Assembly (NCBI GenBank): GCA_028280525.1
Contig: JANQLR010000159.1
Coordinates: 1 to 33,494, forward strand
Origin: Longimicrobiales bacterium
Lineage (GTDB): Bacteria > Gemmatimonadota > Gemmatimonadetes > Longimicrobiales > Gaopeijiaceae
DNA length: 33,494 nucleotides
Direction of reading: 5' to 3'
The notes below the pieces were generated by a model, which was given only the letters and a program-made list of their open reading frames with translations, was not told where the DNA came from and did not search any database. The translations under genes were made by a program, and so were the position numbers. This document shows positions 597 through 32,907 of this stretch, in pieces. Each line of letters begins with the position of its first letter. The first letter of the stretch is position 1.

Positions 597-750
597 GGAG
601 GGCCTCCAGGAGGGGGAGGAGACAGGCTAGCCCCTCGAGCATCGTCGCGCAGCAGCTCCAGGAGCGCCCGGCGTAGGGAGATTCCGCGACGAAGAAGGGG
701 GGAGGTTCCCCGACGGCTCGATTGGCGATGCTGAAACATCTTGCAACAGT

Positions 751-770
751 CGGGTGCGACGCCGCACCCG
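751..770 (+). promoter_or_regulatory. Perfect hairpin in the leader of the sigma-54 activator gene
   Basis: An 8-bp perfect inverted repeat (CGGGTGCG and CGCACCCG, 4-base loop) ends 23 bases before the preferred ATG at 794. It could be an operator for autoregulation or a leader RNA hairpin. It would lie inside the coding sequence if translation began at the TTG at 722, which supports the 794 start. Role not shown. Confidence 0.35.
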
Positions 771-793
771 ATCTCACCGCTGCGAGGTGCCTG

Positions 794-2599
<1,806 letters not shown>

Positions 2600-2802: not shown

Positions 2803-2818
2803 CGGCACGATCGCTGCA
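2803..2818 (+). promoter_or_regulatory. Sigma-54 (-24/-12) promoter of the sqr operon
   Basis: CGGCACGATCGCTGCA matches the sigma-54 consensus TGGCACG-N4-TTGCA at all but two defined positions. The invariant GG (2804-2805) and GC (2816-2817) are spaced correctly. Transcription would start near 2828, leaving a ~50-base leader before the sqr ATG at 2881. The enhancer-binding protein gene directly upstream and the paired palindromes support the call. Confidence 0.75.
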
Positions 2819-2880: not shown

Positions 2881-4113
2881 ATGAAGAAGCTGGTGATCCT
2901 GGGCGGCGGCACGGCCGGGACGATGATGGCCGCGAAGATGCGGCAGCAGCTCGATCCGTGGAGCTGGCGGATCCAGGTCGTCGATCGCGACAACCGACAT
3001 CTGTATCAGCCGGGCCTCCTCTTCCTCCCCTTCGGTACCTACACCCATCGGCACCTGCACAAGCCGCGCTCCCGCTTCATGCCCGACGGGGTGGAGCTGG
3101 TGCTGGGCGAGGTGGACCGCATCGAGCCCGAAGAGAACCGGATCCGCTTCGCGGACGGCACGCGGCTCCCGTACGACCAGCTGATCGTCGCCACCGGCTC
3201 CCGCATCGTCCCCGAAGAGACCGAGGGGCTGACGGGCGAGGGGTGGGGACGCAGCGCCTTCGATTTCTACACCGTGGAGGGTGCGACCGCGCTCCGTGAC
3301 ACCTTGGCCGGATTCCGGGGCGGGCGTGTCGTCGTCAACCTGGTCGACATGCCGGTGAAGTGCCCGGTCGCACCCCTCGAGTTCCTCTTCCTGGCCGACG
3401 CCTTCTTCACCGAGCGCGGGGTGCGGGACGACGTGGAGCTGGTCTATGCGACCTCGCTCGACGCCGCCTTCACCAAGAAACGCTGCTCAGACGCCCTGAC
3501 CGGACTGATCGAGAGCCGCGGCATCGAGCTGGCGCCGAGCTTCATGCTCGAGAAGGTCGACGGCGAAAACCGCGTCATGCACAGCTACGACGACCGGACG
3601 ATCGACTACGATCTTCTCGTCTCGGTCCCACTCCACCGCGGCTCCCCGGTCATCGCGCGCTCCGGACTGGGTGACGAGCTCGACTTCGTCCCCACCGACC
3701 GCCACACGCTTCGCGCCGAGGCGTGGGAGAACGTCTGGGTGCTCGGTGACGCGACGAACCTGCCCTCCTCGAAGGCCGGGTCCGTGGCCCACTTCCAGGC
3801 CGAGGTCCTCACCGAGAACCTCCTCGCCGCCATCTCCGGTCTCGAGCCGCCCGCCGCCTTCGACGGGCACGCGAACTGCTTCATCGAGACGGGGCACGGC
3901 AAGGCGATCCTGATCGACTTCAACTACGACACCGAGCCGCTTCCCGGGCGCTTCCCGGTCCCGGGCGTGGGCCCCTTCACCCTGCTGGAGGAGTCCGAGG
4001 CGAACCACTGGGGGAAGATGGCCTTCCGGTGGGCCTACTGGAATCTGCTGCTCAAGGGGGCCGACCTGAGCTCGATCGGTCCGTCGATGTCCATGGCCGG
4101 AAAGTGGAGCTGA
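2881..4113 (+). CDS. sqr: Sulfide:quinone oxidoreductase
   Basis: This 410-residue FAD protein of the SQR/FCSD family oxidises sulfide to sulfane sulfur or polysulfide and passes electrons to membrane quinone. It has an N-terminal FAD-binding motif (GGGTAGT), a second ATGS-type motif near 100 and a late WVLGDATNLP FAD motif. Cys161 in KCPVAPLE and Cys333 in NCFIETG match the two redox-active cysteines of the family. The third cysteine found near position 128 in type I enzymes is absent; an extra Cys202 is present. The C-terminus (residues ~375-405) is amphipathic and suits peripheral membrane attachment. The start follows a strong GAGGGAG. It is the first gene after the -24/-12 promoter, and the next gene starts three bases after its stop. 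Type assignment within the family is not firm. Confidence 0.88.
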   Translation: MKKLVILGGGTAGTMMAAKMRQQLDPWSWRIQVVDRDNRHLYQPGLLFLPFGTYTHRHLHKPRSRFMPDGVELVLGEVDRIEPEENRIRFADGTRLPYDQLIVATGSRIVPEETEGLTGEGWGRSAFDFYTVEGATALRDTLAGFRGGRVVVNLVDMPVKCPVAPLEFLFLADAFFTERGVRDDVELVYATSLDAAFTKKRCSDALTGLIESRGIELAPSFMLEKVDGENRVMHSYDDRTIDYDLLVSVPLHRGSPVIARSGLGDELDFVPTDRHTLRAEAWENVWVLGDATNLPSSKAGSVAHFQAEVLTENLLAAISGLEPPAAFDGHANCFIETGHGKAILIDFNYDTEPLPGRFPVPGVGPFTLLEESEANHWGKMAFRWAYWNLLLKGADLSSIGPSMSMAGKWS

Positions 4114-4116
4114 CCG

Positions 4117-5094
4117 ATGATCAACGAGACCACGAACCGGAACGGCTTCGAGACGTCCGAGCCCTGGGAGGCATCGGGACGACTTCCGGCCACGCCCCCT
4201 CGCGACGAACTCGAGGCGCTGCACGCGAAGATCGACGCCCTCACCGAGACGGTCGGGCGGATCGACCGCCGTCGCGAGGAGCTGGAGGAGCTGGTCGAGG
4301 ACCTGATGCCCGCGGTGAACGGGGCGATGGTCCTCCTGCGGGATCGCCTCGATCTCCTCGATCGCAGCGGGGCGTGGGCGAACGGTCGCGGAGCGCTGGC
4401 CGCGGCCGAAACCGCCCTCACCGCGCTCGACCCGCACGACCTCGAGGCGCTCGCCGAGTCGACGCCCGAGCTCCTGCGGACGCTGCGCGTCTCCACGGCG
4501 CCGGAGATCACCGGTCTCGCGGATCGGTTGGCCGAGTCGCTCGCCGAGGCCCGGCACGGTCCGGCCCCTTCGCTGTGGCAACTCGGCCGCTCCGCCCGTT
4601 CGCCCCGCGTCCGCAGGGGGATGGGGGTCGCGCTGACGCTCCTGCGGGCGCTCGGAGAGGGCAGTCGCGGGGCGTCGGTCCCGCCGCCCCCTCGCCGACG
4701 TGTGGCCCGCGGTCCCGGCAACACGACCGGCGCCAGCTGCCAGACGCCCGTCGGAGTGGCGACGCCGTCGCCCGTCGCCGGGTCGATCTCCGCCGCGGAC
4801 GGATCGAACTGGGAGCTCGATGCGGACGGCTTCCTCGCCGACTCGACCACCTGGTCGCGCGACTTCGGTGAGGCGGTGGCGGTGCAGGAAGGGCTGGCCC
4901 TCACCGACGTCCACTGGACGGTCCTCGACTTCGTCCGGCAGGACGGCGCCGGCGCCGGGTCCGCCCCGGGGGTCCGTCGCATCGTCGCCGAGACCGGGAT
5001 CGCCCAGAAGGAGCTGTACCGACTCTTCCCCGGCGGACCGGCCCGCCTCGCTGCACGAATCGCCGGACTGAAGAAGCCCAAGAGCTGCGTCTGA
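4117..5094 (+). CDS. DUF1641-TusE/DsrC fusion protein
   Basis: This 325-residue protein joins two parts that are normally separate. Residues ~25-185 are helical with a coiled-coil start and resemble DUF1641, a family seen next to Sqr-like oxidoreductases. A proline/arginine-rich linker (~190-225) follows. Residues ~228-325 match TusE/DsrC: DGFLADSTTWSRDFGEAVA, EGLALTDVHWTVLDFVR, KELYRLFPGGPA and the terminal IAGLKKPKSCV. The penultimate Cys324 corresponds to the conserved C-terminal cysteine (CysA) that carries persulfide or trisulfide in the family. The second cysteine of true DsrC, eleven residues upstream, is an alanine or arginine here, so the domain is TusE-like. Inferred role: the DUF1641 part docks on Sqr while the mobile C-terminal arm collects sulfane sulfur. 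The family assignments are strong; the docking idea is not tested. Confidence 0.8.
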   Translation: MINETTNRNGFETSEPWEASGRLPATPPRDELEALHAKIDALTETVGRIDRRREELEELVEDLMPAVNGAMVLLRDRLDLLDRSGAWANGRGALAAAETALTALDPHDLEALAESTPELLRTLRVSTAPEITGLADRLAESLAEARHGPAPSLWQLGRSARSPRVRRGMGVALTLLRALGEGSRGASVPPPPRRRVARGPGNTTGASCQTPVGVATPSPVAGSISAADGSNWELDADGFLADSTTWSRDFGEAVAVQEGLALTDVHWTVLDFVRQDGAGAGSAPGVRRIVAETGIAQKELYRLFPGGPARLAARIAGLKKPKSCV

Positions 5095-5137: not shown

Positions 5138-5662
5138 ATGAGCACCACCGACTGGACCGCCACCGACGCCGGCACCGCCCTGGCCGCCGGCCCGCAGGCT
5201 CCCCCGCGTCGCAAGATCGCGATCATCTGCTCCAAGGGGACGCTCGACATGGCGTACCCCGGCCTCGTCCTCGCGAACGCCGCTCGGATGATGGGGATCG
5301 ACGCCGTCGTCTTCTTCACCTTCTGGGGGATGGACATCATTCGCGAGAAGACGGTGGACAAGCTGCACGCCGGGATCGTCGGCAACCCCGCGATGCACAT
5401 GCCGAATGCCCTCACCCCGATCCCCGGGATGGAGGCCTTCGCCACGAAGATGATGAAGAAGAAGATCGCGGACATCGACATCCCCCCGATCCGGGAGATG
5501 CTCGAGACGCTCGACGACGCCGGAGCCGAACTCTACGCCTGCAAGATGGCGATGGAGATGATGGACATCGCCGAGGACGAGCTCATCCCGCAGGTCCACG
5601 AGGTCATCACTGCGATGGACTTCTACGACAAGTCCGAAGGCGCCCAGATCGTCTTCATCTGA
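5138..5662 (+). CDS. DsrE-like sulfur carrier (DsrE2/COG2210 type)
   Basis: This 174-residue protein follows a clear GAGGAG ribosome site. After a flexible ~24-residue tail it has a DsrE/DsrF-like alpha/beta fold pattern: KIAIICSKGTLDMAYPG, a hydrophobic FFTFWGMDII segment, a methionine-rich stretch and ELYACKMAMEMM. Cys31 and Cys135 lie at the two cysteine positions usual for DsrE2-type proteins; in this family a cysteine accepts sulfane sulfur. It may associate with the membrane through the hydrophobic segment. Being directly behind sqr and the TusE-fusion gene, it is the likely next carrier or a partner of the Cys324 arm. Alternative members of this family are annotated loosely as peroxiredoxin-like. 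Confidence 0.83.
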   Translation: MSTTDWTATDAGTALAAGPQAPPRRKIAIICSKGTLDMAYPGLVLANAARMMGIDAVVFFTFWGMDIIREKTVDKLHAGIVGNPAMHMPNALTPIPGMEAFATKMMKKKIADIDIPPIREMLETLDDAGAELYACKMAMEMMDIAEDELIPQVHEVITAMDFYDKSEGAQIVFI

Positions 5663-5764: not shown

Positions 5765-7267
5765 ATGAATAGATGGACGCTTTCGGCGGCGACCGCCGCC
5801 CTGTCGCTCACCCTGCTCGCCGCCCCGTCCGCGGCCCAGACCAACGGATTCGTGATGCAGTGCATGTCGGCCCGGACTGCCGGGGCCGGTTGCGTCACCC
5901 GCGCCCAGGAGGCCACCCCGACGAACCTCTTCCGTGATCCCGCCAGCCTCGTCGACTTCGAAGCCGCCTCCTTCGAGGTGAATCTCAGCTCCTTCACCCC
6001 GTCGCTCACCTTCGAGAATGCGGCCAACCCCTTCCAGGTGGCCGGGACGCAGCACACCTATCCCATGTTCTCGGCGGCGTACATCGCCCGTCCGAGCGGG
6101 AACTTCGCGTGGGGGATCGGGCTCGAGCCGATCGGCGGCTTCGGCGCCGACTTCGCGCTTCAGCACGACCTCCTCTCCGGGCCCAACGGGACGGCGGTCG
6201 ACTACGAGACCTTCTTCATGGCGATGAAGGCGGGGCCGGCGGTCGCGTGGCGCTTCGCCGAAGGGTGGAGCGTCGGCGCGAGCGCCTCGGTGATCTACTC
6301 TCAGATCCGCGACTTCCGCATGCCCTTTACCATGCCGGCGACGACCCCGCTCGGGATGGGCGCGATCGCGCAGCTCGACGGGGCGGTCTACGGCCCGATG
6401 TTCAGCCACTTCACCGAGCTGACCGCCTACGGAGACTCCGAGAGCTACGCCGGCTTCGGGTGGACCGCCGACCTCGGCCTCCGCTACACCGCCGATAACG
6501 GCTTCGTCTTCGCCGCGTCGTGGGCGCCCGAGCGCCCCATCACGCTCGACGGCGGCACCGCCACCATCGACATGACCGCCCAGTTCCAGCAGATGCTCGG
6601 CGGCATGGTCATGGCGCGCGCACAGGCGTACCAGGAGTCGCCCCAGCAGGCGCAGGGTGCCGTCATGCAGCAGCTCGGCATGGCCGGTTTGGACCTGCAG
6701 GCCGGGGTCGTCTCACAGTACGACGCCGCGACCGAGCTCACCCTGCCCATGACCTTCGGGGCCGGGATCCGGACGCCGCTGACCGAAGGACTCCGCATGT
6801 CCGCCGAGGTCGAGTGGCGGCAGTGGTCGAACGCCCAGAGCGTCATGCCCTTCCGGCTCACCAACGGGACCAACGCGAACATCAACCTCATGATGAACGC
6901 CGACCCCACGAACTCCGACTTCACCTACCCCTTCCCGCTCGAGTGGCAGGACAGCTGGACGGCCAAGGTCGGGGCGGAGTACGCCCTCTCCGAGACGCTC
7001 GCCCTTCGCGGCGGCTTCCTCTACGGGGAGAACCCGGTTCCGGACCACACCGTCTTCATCGCCTTCCCGGCGATCTCGACGAACGCCGCCACCTTCGGCC
7101 TGACCTTCGACGCCGCAGGCGTCCCGCTCGACGTCAGCTACGTGCGTGCGCTCCAGACCGACTTCGACGGGTGCGGTGAGAATCACCTCATCGGCGCGGA
7201 GTATCTCAACAGCCGCAGCGGCATGTCGCAGGACGTGATCACGCTCGGGACGAGGTTGAGCTTCTAG
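5765..7267 (+). CDS. FadL/TodX-type outer-membrane channel
   Basis: This 500-residue protein has a signal peptide ending near AAPSAAQ and a terminal phenylalanine typical of beta-barrels. The N-terminal segment (FVMQCMSARTAGAGC, then LFRDPASLVDF) resembles the hatch region and NPA-like motif of FadL-family transporters, which move hydrophobic compounds across the outer membrane. Alternating aromatic strands continue to the end. It is preceded by a strong GGAAGGGGAGG and lies about 100 bases behind the DsrE-like gene on the same strand, with a stem-loop between. A role in moving hydrophobic sulfur, such as elemental sulfur or polysulfane, is only suggested by position; ordinary lipid or hydrocarbon uptake is possible. 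Two cysteines in the first mature residues are unusual. Confidence 0.72.
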   Translation: MNRWTLSAATAALSLTLLAAPSAAQTNGFVMQCMSARTAGAGCVTRAQEATPTNLFRDPASLVDFEAASFEVNLSSFTPSLTFENAANPFQVAGTQHTYPMFSAAYIARPSGNFAWGIGLEPIGGFGADFALQHDLLSGPNGTAVDYETFFMAMKAGPAVAWRFAEGWSVGASASVIYSQIRDFRMPFTMPATTPLGMGAIAQLDGAVYGPMFSHFTELTAYGDSESYAGFGWTADLGLRYTADNGFVFAASWAPERPITLDGGTATIDMTAQFQQMLGGMVMARAQAYQESPQQAQGAVMQQLGMAGLDLQAGVVSQYDAATELTLPMTFGAGIRTPLTEGLRMSAEVEWRQWSNAQSVMPFRLTNGTNANINLMMNADPTNSDFTYPFPLEWQDSWTAKVGAEYALSETLALRGGFLYGENPVPDHTVFIAFPAISTNAATFGLTFDAAGVPLDVSYVRALQTDFDGCGENHLIGAEYLNSRSGMSQDVITLGTRLSF

Positions 7268-29101: not shown

Positions 29102-30235
29102 ATGTCCGGGAGCAAGGACTACTACAAGATCCTCGGCGTCTCCGAGAAGGCGTCGGGGGACGAGATCAAGAAGGCGTACCGGAAGCTCGCCAAGGCGAAC
29201 CATCCGGACGCCAACCCGGACGATGCCCGAGCCGCGGAGCGCTTCAAGGACATCGGCGAGGCGTACGGCGTCCTCTCCGACGCCGACAAGCGCAAGAAGT
29301 ACGACCAGATGCGCCGCCTGGGGGCCTTCGGCTTCGGGGGCGGCGGAGCGCGGCCGGGCGGGAGCCGACCAGGACCGGGAACCGGGGCGACCGGCACCGG
29401 GGGGATCTCCTTCGAGGACCTGCAGGGCTTCGGGAGCGGGATCGGCGACATGTTCTCGTCGATCTTCGACTTCGGGAAGGGGCGTCCCGGGGCGAAGCAG
29501 GAGGCGAAGCGGGAGAAGGGGGCCGACGTGGAGTACGTCGTCGACATCTCCTTCGAGACGGCCGCCCGAGGTGGGAAGATCGCGATCGCCGTGCCGATCA
29601 CCGAGCCGTGCGCCACCTGTGACGGTACCGGGGGCGAGCCCGACTCCAAGGTCTCGCTCTGCCCGGAGTGCAAGGGCTCCGGTCAGGTCTCCTTCGGTCA
29701 GCGCGGCTTCGCGGTGCAGCGGCCCTGTCCCGCCTGCTTCGGCCGGGGGATGATCCCCGAGAAGCCCTGCGCCTCCTGCAAGGGGCGGGGCGAGGTTCGG
29801 CAGGAGCGGAAGATCCAGGTCTCGGTGCCGAAGGGCGTCGACACGGGCTCCAAGCTGCGGCTGTCGGGGCAGGGGGAGCGCGGCGCAAAGGGCGGCCCTC
29901 CCGGGGACCTCATCCTCTCCTTCAAGGTGAAGTCGCACCGCTTCTTCCGGCGCGACGGGCTCGACATCCACGTCACCGTTCCCGTGAACATCGTCCAGGC
30001 GACGCTCGGCTCGAAGCTGAAGGTGCGGACGATCGAGGGGAAGCGGGTCGTGCTGCGGGTCCCGCCCGGTACGCAGTCGGGCACGCGCTTCCGGATCCGG
30101 GGGCAGGGGATCGAGAAGGGCGACCGCGTCGGCGATCAGATCGTCGAGGTCGAGGTCAGCGTCCCCGAGGAGCTCTCCGAGGAGGAGAAGGCGGCGATGG
30201 AGTCGTTCGCGGAGGCGTCGGGCCTCAAGCACTGA
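29102..30235 (+). CDS. dnaJ: DnaJ (Hsp40) chaperone, type I
   Basis: This 377-residue co-chaperone has a J domain (1-~70) with HPD at 34-36, the residues that trigger DnaK ATP hydrolysis. A glycine-rich linker (~80-115) and a zinc region follow, with four CxxCxGxG repeats ([32 protein letters not shown]). Two client-binding beta domains end the protein. The length is normal. Its last ~100 bases lie opposite the 3' end of mnmA. It is the last gene of the plus-strand run starting at mglA. Confidence 0.97.
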
Positions 30236-31329
30236 GGCGGGGTCAGCGCCCGCCGGATTCGACCCCCGCCGAGCACCCGCTCACCGTCGAAGATCACCGC
30301 CGACTGGCCTGGGGTGACCGCCCGCTGCGGCTCGACGAAGCGCAGCGTCAGCCGGTCACCCTCGCGCGCCTCGACGACCGCGGGGACGTCCGGGGCGCGG
30401 TAGCGGATCTGCACGGAGAGCTCGGCCCCCGGCTCGGGCGCGTCGCCGTGCCAGTTCACCTCCGCCACCTCCATCGCCGGCACGTCGAGCTCGTCGCGCG
30501 TCCCGACGACGACCTCCCGGCTCCCGGGGCGCACCTCGAGGACGAAGATCGGCTCGGCGAAGCCCCCGGGGAGCCCCTTCCGCTGCCCGACGGTGAAGCC
30601 GGCGTACCCGCCGTGCTCCCCGATCACCGTCCCGTCGCGGCGGACGATCGGGCCCGGCTCGAGCGCGGGGTGGACGCCGGGGAGCCGCTTCTGGAGGAGG
30701 TCGCGGTAGTTGCCGGTCGGGACGAAGCAGATCTCCTGCGACTCGGGCTTCTCTGCGGTCGCGAGGGTGAGAGAGCGCGCGCGGTCCCGCACCTCCGGCT
30801 TCGTCAGCTCGCCGAGGGGAAAGAGGAGGGAGGGGAGCACCTCGCGCGGCAGCCCCCAGAGGAAGTACGACTGGTCCTTCCGCCGATCGAGACCGCGCAG
30901 GAGGTGGCTCCCGCCCTCGTCGTGCGCGATCCGGACGTAGTGGCCGGTCGCGATGGCGTCGCACTGCAGCTCGCGGCCCCGCGCGAGGAGGTCCGGGATC
31001 TTCGTGTTCGAATTGCAGCGCACGCAGGGATTCGGCGTCCGTCCCTCGGCGTACTCGGAGACGAAGTCGTCGATGACGTCGCGGGTGAAGTCCTCCTCCA
31101 CGTCGAAGACGTAGTGGGGGATGCCGAGGGTGTCGGCGACCCGGCGCGCATCGACGATCCCGTCGAGCCCGCAGCAGGTCTTCCCGTGGTCCCCGGTGCC
31201 CGAGTAGCAGAAGGTCTTCATCGTGACGCCGACGACGTCGAAGCCCTGCTCCACGAGGAGGGCCGCCGCGACCGACGAGTCCACGCCGCCGGACATGGCG
31301 ACGAGGACGCGGGACCCCGCGCGGATCAC
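30136..31329 (-). CDS. mnmA: tRNA-specific 2-thiouridylase MnmA
   Basis: This 397-residue enzyme thiolates U34 of Lys, Glu and Gln tRNAs using ATP and sulfur from a cysteine desulfurase. It starts with GTG at 31329, overlapping the desulfurase stop (GTGA). The PP-loop is [15 protein letters not shown]. Cys102 in NPCVRCN and Cys201 in SQEICFVP match the catalytic pair of the E. coli enzyme. [18 protein letters not shown] is the usual insert. The recognisable fold ends near residue 360 (GGGRIRR). The next in-frame stop is ~35 codons on, inside dnaJ antisense, giving a serine-rich tail ([12 protein letters not shown]). Either the tail is real or the natural stop has been lost. Confidence 0.94.
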
Positions 31330-32492
31330 GCCGTCGCCCCGGAGGGCCGGAGTCGCTCGACGACGCGGGCGGTGATCGCGATGGCGCGGTCGATCTCCTC
31401 CTCGGTCGTCGTGCGACCGAAGGAGAAGCGCACTCCGGCGGAGGGGCCGTCCTCGCCGAACATCGCCCGCAGGACGTGCGAGCCCGCGGTCGAGCCGGAG
31501 GTGCACGCCGAGCCGCCGGAGACGGCCAGCCCCTCCAGATCGAGGGAGATCATCAGCATCTCGCTCGCGCCGCAGGGGAGCCCGACGTTCACGACGTGAC
31601 CGGCGCGCGGTGCGTGCTCACCGTGCACCCGGACCTCCCCATTCAGCCGCTCGCGCAGTCCGCCGACCAGGCGATCACGGAGGGCGGTGACCCGCGACTG
31701 GTACGCCTCCTGCTCCTCGACGGCGAGGCAGACCGCCTCGGCGAGCCCGACCACCCCGACGGTGTCGAGGGTGCCGGGGCGCAGCCCGGACTCCTGACCG
31801 CCCCCGTGCAGTCGGGCGTGCACCTCCGTCCCCTCGCGCACGAAGAGGACGCCGACGCTCTTGGGGCCGTAGATCTTGTGGCCGGAGAGAGAGAGGAGGT
31901 CGACCGGAACCTCGTCCACGCGGACGCGGATCTTCCCGACCGCCTGGACCGCGTCGGTGTGCACCGTGATCCCGGCGGCGTGTGCCCGCTCGACGATCTC
32001 GGGGATCGGCTGCATCACCCCGGTCTCGTTGTTCACCCACATGCACGAGAGGCAGCAGAGCCCCGCCTCGAGGGCGGAGTCGAGCGCCGCCATCTCGATC
32101 CGGCCCTCGGAGTCGACCGGGAGGATCGTCGTGGTGCCCCCCATCGACTGCACCGCCGCGGCCGCCTCGAGCACCGCCTTGTGCTCCGTCGCAGGTACGG
32201 CGACCCGCGGAGCGGTCCCCTGGGCGCGCGACAGCTCCGCGCGGCCGAGGATCGCCAGATTGTCCGACTCGGTCCCCCCGCGGACGAAGACGATCTCGCG
32301 ACGCCGGGCGCCGAGCGCCTCCGCGATCCGCGATCGACTCTCCTCGATGGCCGCCCCGGCCTTTCGGCCCCAGCGGTGCGCGGAACCGGAGTTGCCGAAG
32401 TGCTCGGCCCAGTACGGCTCCATGGCGGCGACGACCTCCGGTCGAACCGGGGTGGTGGCCGCGTAGTCGAGGTAGATGGGGGGTGCCGTCAT
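31326..32492 (-). CDS. Cysteine desulfurase (NifS/IscS family)
   Basis: This 388-residue PLP enzyme converts cysteine to alanine and a persulfide. The ATG at 32490-32492 has AGGAAA ahead of it. The fold signatures are YLDYAATTPVRPEV, NSGSAHRWGR, ATEHKAV (His104), Lys206 in SGHKIYGPK as the PLP Schiff base and Cys330 in SGGSACTSGS as the persulfide carrier on a mobile loop. The long loop is that of group I. It is translationally coupled to mnmA by a 4-base overlap, so its main job is probably tRNA 2-thiolation, as for YrvO-MnmA in Bacillus. Iron-sulfur cluster genes are not adjacent. Confidence 0.95.
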   Translation of the reverse strand: MTAPPIYLDYAATTPVRPEVVAAMEPYWAEHFGNSGSAHRWGRKAGAAIEESRSRIAEALGARRREIVFVRGGTESDNLAILGRAELSRAQGTAPRVAVPATEHKAVLEAAAAVQSMGGTTTILPVDSEGRIEMAALDSALEAGLCCLSCMWVNNETGVMQPIPEIVERAHAAGITVHTDAVQAVGKIRVRVDEVPVDLLSLSGHKIYGPKSVGVLFVREGTEVHARLHGGGQESGLRPGTLDTVGVVGLAEAVCLAVEEQEAYQSRVTALRDRLVGGLRERLNGEVRVHGEHAPRAGHVVNVGLPCGASEMLMISLDLEGLAVSGGSACTSGSTAGSHVLRAMFGEDGPSAGVRFSFGRTTTEEEIDRAIAITARVVERLRPSGATA

Positions 32493-32562
32493 CCGATCGT
32501 TTCCTGGGGGAGTGGAGCCCCGTAGTTTAGTCTCCGAAGCGCCCCTCGCACACCGGGAGTCG

Positions 32563-32907
32563 ATGCCCGCCACACCCCTGCCGTACCCGGAGGGTCGACC
32601 CCGGAGCTTTCGCGCCACGGTGCACGGAACCGTCTTCGGCGGGCGGGCGGAGCTGGTCGACGAGATGAAGGACGGAGACCGGGTGCTGCTGGTCGCTGAT
32701 CCCCCCGGTGACGAGGCGCCCGGCGTCTGGATCCACCTGGAGGCGGGAGACCCGGTCGGACACCTCCCGCCGGAGATCGCCTCCTGGCTCTGGCCCTGGC
32801 TGCACGCCGGAGGGGGTGCCAGCGCGACCGCGCTCCGGGTGCACGGCGAAGACGTTCCGAGCTGGCGCCGGCTGGTCGTTCAGGTGGAGTGCCGCGGAGC
32901 GGCGTGA
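32563..32907 (+). CDS. Small HIRAN-like protein
   Basis: This 114-residue protein starts from the ATG at 32563. Upstream in-frame codons to 32476 overlap the desulfurase start region and look non-coding. The order FRATVHGTVFGGR, DGDRVLLVADPPGDEAPGVW, then GDPVGHLPPEIASWLWPWL resembles the HIRAN domain, which in helicases binds DNA ends or modified DNA. Here it stands alone. The match is from pattern only, without detection by search, so the family is tentative. It lies divergent from the desulfurase and converges on the bshB1-like gene. Confidence 0.5.
   Translation: MPATPLPYPEGRPRSFRATVHGTVFGGRAELVDEMKDGDRVLLVADPPGDEAPGVWIHLEAGDPVGHLPPEIASWLWPWLHAGGGASATALRVHGEDVPSWRRLVVQVECRGAA

Follow-up and report, generated by a model that had tools for sequence, protein, structure and literature searches.

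Organization of the sulfide operon and its fusion gene

The window analyzed here (the whole stretch of 33,494 nucleotides, from genome G000) carries an operon in the order sigma-54 activator, sqr, fusion gene, DsrE-family gene, and FadL-type gene, all on the + strand. The individual features are given below.

722..2599, + strand: PAS-AAA+ sigma-54 activator with the RCPQCLKGCGVF cysteine motif (Pfam, motif scan)
2803..2818, + strand: sigma-54-like -24/-12 site, a weak candidate located 78 nt before sqr (10/12 consensus positions)
2881..4113, + strand: sqr, sulfide:quinone oxidoreductase with Cys161 and Cys333 (NCBIfam NF049943, 607.9 bits vs cut-off 525)
4117..5094, + strand: DUF1641::DsrC fusion gene, 325 aa (ORF, Pfam, class-wide profile search)
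4198..4662, + strand: predicted all-helical DUF1641 region, residues 28–182 (AlphaFold model, Pfam)
4663..4782, + strand: disordered linker, Pro/Arg/Ala-rich, about residues 183–222 (AlphaFold model)
4798..5091, + strand: one-cysteine DsrC/TusE domain (Pfam, NCBIfam, Foldseek), with penultimate Cys324 at codon 5086–5088
5138..5662, + strand: DsrE/DsrF/DsrE2-like sulfurtransferase (Pfam DrsE_2, 135.4 bits vs 25)
5765..7267, + strand: FadL/TodX-type outer-membrane protein (Pfam)

The fusion gene is an uninterrupted open reading frame with an ATG at 4117, only 3 nt after the sqr stop, and a stop that ends at 5094. The original prediction of a single protein joining DUF1641 to a DsrC/TusE domain within an sqr operon was borne out. 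Both Pfam profiles scored above their cut-offs: the DUF1641 motif (PF07849) at residues 147–180 (nt 4555–4656; E 1.8e-6, 28.1 bits vs 21) and DsrC (PF04358) at residues 228–325 (E 4.1e-27, 95.2 bits vs 24.9). The protein also matches the NCBIfam model for TusE/DsrC/DsvC (TIGR03342, 77.6 bits vs 53.5) and falls below the NCBIfam TusE equivalog cut-off (63.2 vs 191 bits). In the AlphaFold model, helices extend over residues 28–182, the proposed linker appears as a segment with pLDDT <50 (residues 178–219), and the DsrC fold is well predicted. When this model was used for a Foldseek search, eight of the 121 matches had E <= 0.001, all of them DsrC-family structures (E 8.3e-7 to 1.4e-5); no DUF1641 structure was among the matches listed (50 of 121), the DUF1641 part being modelled with uncertainty. 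The C-terminus is Cys324-Val, placing the cysteine in the penultimate position as predicted, and Cys324 is the sole cysteine of the DsrC domain; the second cysteine of the protein (Cys208) lies within the linker. We found no report of a DUF1641-DsrC fusion in the open-licence literature, and as far as these searches go the architecture is a new combination of known parts.

The adjacent sqr product opens with the FAD-binding motif, and by eye it carries no signal peptide; the solved proteins nearest to it in sequence are SQORs whose names call them mitochondrial. Cys161 and Cys333, which align with cysteines of the solved SQORs and which we take to be the redox pair, are kept in 31/31 near-full-length Sqr sequences (window included, partial tblastn hits dropped). 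The model NF049943 is named 'type III, selenoprotein subtype'; the window Sqr carries Cys and its frame is free of stops, and a selenoprotein Sqr was ruled out since none of the tblastn Sqr hits contained a stop. Downstream of the fusion gene, the DsrE-family protein has a cysteine (Cys135) that is conserved in 34/34 distinct sequences (short hits dropped), and it scores below the DsrE2 sulfur carrier equivalog NF047629 (104.7 vs 210 bits). The sulfide operon is closed by the FadL/TodX-type gene, and close copies of this gene follow the cassettes of genomes G167, G051, and G284 (64, 60, and 48% identity).

From its position, we infer that the sigma-54 activator regulates the operon. Its PAS cysteine motif (RCxxCLKGCGVF), found as C..C...CG.F in 7/9 cassette loci scanned (window included), is possibly a sulfane-sulfur sensor. 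In G075, a genome of the same genus, the cysteine motif recurs in an ORF of 199 aa upstream of sqr (L034 3426–4025); this ORF has a Fis-type end, judged by eye, and no room for an AAA+ part. Across the window, sigma-54 sites were no more frequent than by chance (two seen vs 2.39 expected). Within the 250 nt upstream of sqr, the window site was equalled in 2/200 plain shuffles. The best GG/GC site lay at 66–86 nt in 7/15 loci tested (window included), and for those seven loci shuffles did as well in 2 to 138 of 200.

Fused, separate, and DUF1641-free cassettes in related genomes

A survey of related genomes for the same fusion, proposed together with the original prediction, found two further cases. 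Using a profile of the three fusions (five best first-look candidates scored per genome), 48/394 sampled class genomes were matched, and the only full-length matches were in G000, in G167, which belongs to the same genus, and in G051, from a different family of the order; weak matches in G205, G328, and G418 (E 6e-4 to 9e-4) were excluded from the counts. Both additional genomes encode the same continuous fusion ORF at 42–45% identity, with PF07849 above its gathering score (26.9 bits in G167 and 26.7 bits in G051), and the KPKSCV C-terminus is the same in all three fusions. A scan for internal starts found no ATG in the linker of the window gene; in G051 there is an ATG just upstream of the DsrC domain, immediately adjacent to a G-run, and G167 has an internal ATG with no obvious ribosome site. 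An internal start yielding an additional free DsrC is not favoured, since no start is conserved among the three fusions.

PF04358 was found in 42/395 sampled phylum genomes and in 18/154 genomes of the order (the other 136 have no DsrC match). Together with G402, G403, G411, G431, and G433, this gave 47 genomes with DsrC, of which 37 contain an sqr-linked dsrC. The linked cassettes comprise three fused genes, eight in which sqr, DUF1641, and dsrC are separate neighbours (G075, G190, G370, G284, G402, G411, G431, and G433), and 26 without DUF1641 between sqr and dsrC. Pfam recognizes DUF1641 in all eight separate proteins, in agreement with the earlier statement that DUF1641 and DsrC are otherwise separate proteins. 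In the 26 remaining genomes, the DsrC hit begins 5–117 nt after the sqr stop, which leaves no room for DUF1641 and shows that these enzymes can work without DUF1641 at that site. Nine of the 47 genomes have only unlinked DsrC in the stretch examined, where unlinked means no tblastn hit of the window Sqr or DsrE in that stretch (often about 1.5 kb on each side, and cut by the contig end in G043 and G345). G402 carries both linked and unlinked DsrC, and G226, located at a contig end, was left out of the cassette classes. Among plasmid records, 18 matched the window fusion, all in the DsrC half only and none over 80%. A scan of genome contigs with two N-terminal peptide patterns gave a single locus, on a contig as long as that of G167.

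In a quick tree of DsrC domains, the three fused domains form one clade on a long branch (SH-aLRT 97), and nine unlinked two-cysteine DsrC rows form another clade. The three cassette states cluster in the Sqr tree, requiring three changes in all (0/200 shuffles were as low), and a single origin of the fusion is weakly supported (60/17). The simplest account is that sqr-dsrC came first, that DUF1641 was then placed between the two genes, and that one fusion followed; losses are a possible alternative in this cassette history.

Relatives of DUF1641 and cysteines of the DsrC arm

A profile built from ten DUF1641 sequences was compared to PDB chains, and it matched ForE1 (E 1.8e-7) and HucM (1.3e-4), with weaker matches to YjlC (0.0019) and the 'NDH-2 membrane coupling protein' (0.0042). 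A Smc chain (6.3e-4) was set aside as a coiled-coil match. When an eleven-sequence profile without the second DUF1641 of the window genome was used, ForE1 (3.9e-8) and HucM (0.0072) were still matched, and the NDH-2 partners were absent at E <= 0.1. The fusion as a single query sequence found no DUF1641 protein of known structure; the DUF1641-only model was too uncertain (pLDDT 65.7), and the DUF1641 part, from 10 and 11 sequences, had low to middling confidence. Judged by profile matches only, the DUF1641 half of the fusion appears to be homologous to quinone-coupling subunits (ForE1 and HucM, with YjlC weaker). According to passages of the ForCE1 study (PMC8808070), B. subtilis ForC1 that lacks ForE1 contains hardly any menaquinone and does not reduce menadione, and passages of the Huc study (PMC10017518) describe HucM as a hydrophobic stalk that brings menaquinone to Huc, with membrane contact at its end. 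The DUF1641 motif aligns with HucM 120–186, its C-terminal end. Because these relatives couple oxidoreductases to menaquinone or the membrane, DUF1641 is probably more than the tether originally proposed.

The window genome has two DUF1641 genes. The second, at the locus G000:C203 (L085, 137–3726), is divergent to genes of a Huc-type NiFe hydrogenase, whose small subunit matches that of the Huc structures end to end (E 5e-156); the large subunit passes the Pfam cut-off and falls below the NCBIfam hydrogenase cut-offs. This second gene is likely HucM. On haloarchaeal plasmids, DUF1641 directly follows an Sqr-like gene (34–37% identity) in 4/4 loci opened, with cytochrome bd genes next in one of them. 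For a Chloroflexota plasmid, the gene table, which is incomplete, lists no DUF1641 next to the Sqr-like gene.

The DsrC arm of the fusion has Ala at the CysB site. The absence of the second cysteine noted in the original prediction is therefore real but is not peculiar to the fusion: among DsrC proteins linked to sqr or dsrE, every one of the 35 distinct C-termini has the penultimate Cys, and the CysB site is occupied by Ala in 28 and by Ser in seven. The 15 unlinked C-termini include eight with both cysteines, three with Tyr at CysB, and four from odd tandem proteins. With Ala at CysB and no dsrA match in the window genome (about 95% complete), the fusion lacks the characteristics of a dissimilatory 'DsrC proper'. 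Passages of a study of A. vinosum (PMC3397948) give the rule that CysB goes with DsrAB and that genomes without DsrAB have DsrC without the second cysteine; by this rule, as those passages state it, the missing CysB is not special to the fusion. The same passages report that in A. vinosum the penultimate cysteine is the only sulfur-binding site of DsrC, that DsrC receives this sulfur from DsrEFH, that transfer from DsrC to DsrEFH was not seen, and that thiosulfate and glutathione persulfide were not usable as sulfur sources for DsrC. The last result, as given there, was counted against direct acceptance of sulfur from Sqr. By analogy, the one-cysteine arm of the fusion would fit a persulfide carrier.

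Some tandem DsrC-DsrC ORFs (about 206–223 aa; L050, L051, L062, and L069) retain CysB and have lost the penultimate cysteine. Near them is a single DsrC with the penultimate Cys and Tyr at CysB, as if the cysteine pair had been divided between two proteins at these loci. L050 (G197:C94) has coordinates 4161–4493 and 6322–6981, and L051 is on G166:C1; the neighbours are DsrM/DsrK-like in L050 and HmcE/HmcF-like in L051, below the cut-offs of those models.

Proposed role of the fusion protein and comparison with known systems

We propose, with about an even balance of confidence, that the fusion may be an accessory subunit of Sqr serving both of its products, i.e., electrons (DUF1641, quinone) and sulfane sulfur (as a persulfide on Cys324), a proposal built from sequence and from analogy with studied proteins. 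Sqr would be a cytoplasmic-side, membrane-bound sulfide:quinone oxidoreductase. The DUF1641 half would dock on it and help couple it to the membrane quinone pool, like ForE1 and HucM. The DsrC/TusE half, connected by some 40 flexible linker residues, would accept sulfane sulfur at Cys324 in persulfide form, and it would give sulfur to the neighbouring DsrE-family sulfurtransferase or take it from there. Because the arm comes after the part that corresponds to the membrane end of HucM and Sqr has no signal peptide, the arm would probably be cytoplasmic and near Sqr.

This dual role is suggested by the quinone-coupling function of DUF1641 relatives and by the second DUF1641 gene beside the Huc-type hydrogenase; the haloarchaeal pairs of Sqr-like and DUF1641 genes, the conserved Sqr cysteines, the penultimate Cys accompanied by Ala/Ser, and the binding of DsrEFH-derived sulfur at that cysteine in A. 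vinosum were also counted in its favour. Counted against it were the 26/37 cassettes without DUF1641 between sqr and dsrC, the DUF1641 matches, which are by profile only, the low to middling confidence of the DUF1641 part of the models, and the Chloroflexota Sqr-like locus without a listed DUF1641. Sqr enzymes are also known to be capable of quinone reduction without a DUF1641-type partner. The mechanism given with the original prediction is supported in part; an arm that reaches the Sqr active site and a channelled route would be hypothetical. A role for DUF1641 purely as an anchor, in line with that prediction, holding the DsrC arm near Sqr so that the cysteine takes sulfane sulfur directly with no involvement of quinone, agrees with the 3-nt operon gap, the flexible linker, and the 26/37 cassettes that dispense with DUF1641. 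However, we consider this unlikely, although by no means negligible, given that DUF1641 relatives of known function couple to menaquinone and that the sole other DUF1641 gene of the genome adjoins a Huc-type hydrogenase.

Instead of being a metabolic carrier, the DsrC half could have a regulatory or sensing function and report the persulfide load. A role of this kind has been proposed for RspA-type DsrC relatives, and it would suit the long branch of the fused DsrC domains and the presence, in the same cluster, of the sigma-54 activator with its PAS cysteine motif; the identical KPKSCV C-termini of all three fusions and the DsrE-family neighbour with conserved Cys135 argue against it, and we regard such a module as improbable. 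An ordinary TusE for tRNA 2-thiolation, fused by chance, is very improbable even though the TusE/DsrC/DsvC subfamily model is matched, for the TusE equivalog cut-off is missed and 136/154 genomes of the order have no DsrC match. A tRNA-thiolation role is further made unlikely by the lack of a TusA match in the window genome (about 95% complete) and by mnmA adjoining a cysteine-desulfurase-like gene (window 30136–32618, - strand; the MnmA cut-off is passed, and the desulfurase models give strong matches that stay under their cut-offs). Finally, relatives with two separate genes, which the original prediction had named as a sign of a sequencing error, do exist in eight genomes, but the error itself was not upheld: the same continuous ORF occurs in two other genomes at 42–45% identity, and the DsrC domains of the three fusions group in a single clade. 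An assembly or sequencing artefact joining two genes, which we hold to be next to impossible, was thus rejected on the independent copies in G167 and G051, and these copies together with the separate-gene relatives point to the history of a real fusion.

Extending the dual role of the fusion, we tentatively suggest, at somewhat below even confidence, that DUF1641 may be a general quinone-coupling stalk (Huc, ForC, NDH-2, Sqr) that was welded in one lineage to a persulfide carrier. A single polypeptide would then direct electrons to quinone and sulfane sulfur to a DsrE relay, and the carrier would hang from the stalk at its end facing the membrane. As a likely partner of Sqr, DUF1641 is new as far as these searches go. 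As a natural fusion with separate-gene and DUF1641-free relatives as controls, the gene suggests that DUF1641, Sqr, and one-cysteine DsrC cooperate, and it bears on the cytoplasmic acceptor of the sulfur of bacterial Sqr and on how peripheral dehydrogenases meet quinone. If true, the quinone coupling by DUF1641 described for formate dehydrogenase and hydrogenase would also apply to sulfide oxidation.

Among known systems, ForE1/YjgD of the B. subtilis ForCE1 formate:menaquinone oxidoreductase (PDB 8rqz) resembles the fusion in being a DUF1641 partner encoded beside its oxidoreductase, and the profile match covers residues 5–177 of its 186; it differs in that the partner is a formate dehydrogenase and no DsrC domain is present. 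HucM of the Huc [NiFe] hydrogenase (PDB 7uus) is likewise helical and aligns with the DUF1641 motif at its C-terminal end, but it has no sulfur-carrier domain, and the Huc-type hydrogenase of the window genome has its own separate DUF1641 gene. YjlC, or the 'NDH-2 membrane coupling protein', with NDH-2 YjlD (PDB 9snk, 9pxk) is likewise of DUF1641 type and partners a flavin quinone reductase that resembles the window Sqr in its N-terminal part (E 2.6e-8); its profile match to the fusion is only the weak one given above, and no paper on it was among the literature matches listed. The haloarchaeal plasmid clusters share with the fusion operon an Sqr-like gene followed by DUF1641, with a DsrE-like gene in two loci, whereas their DUF1641 is separate, no DsrC is listed, and the carrier nearby is TusA (three loci). 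The DsrC/TusE family (TIGR03342, PF04358) shares the fold and the penultimate-cysteine arm with the fusion, which is set apart from it by the missing CysB and by a DUF1641 domain at the N-terminus.
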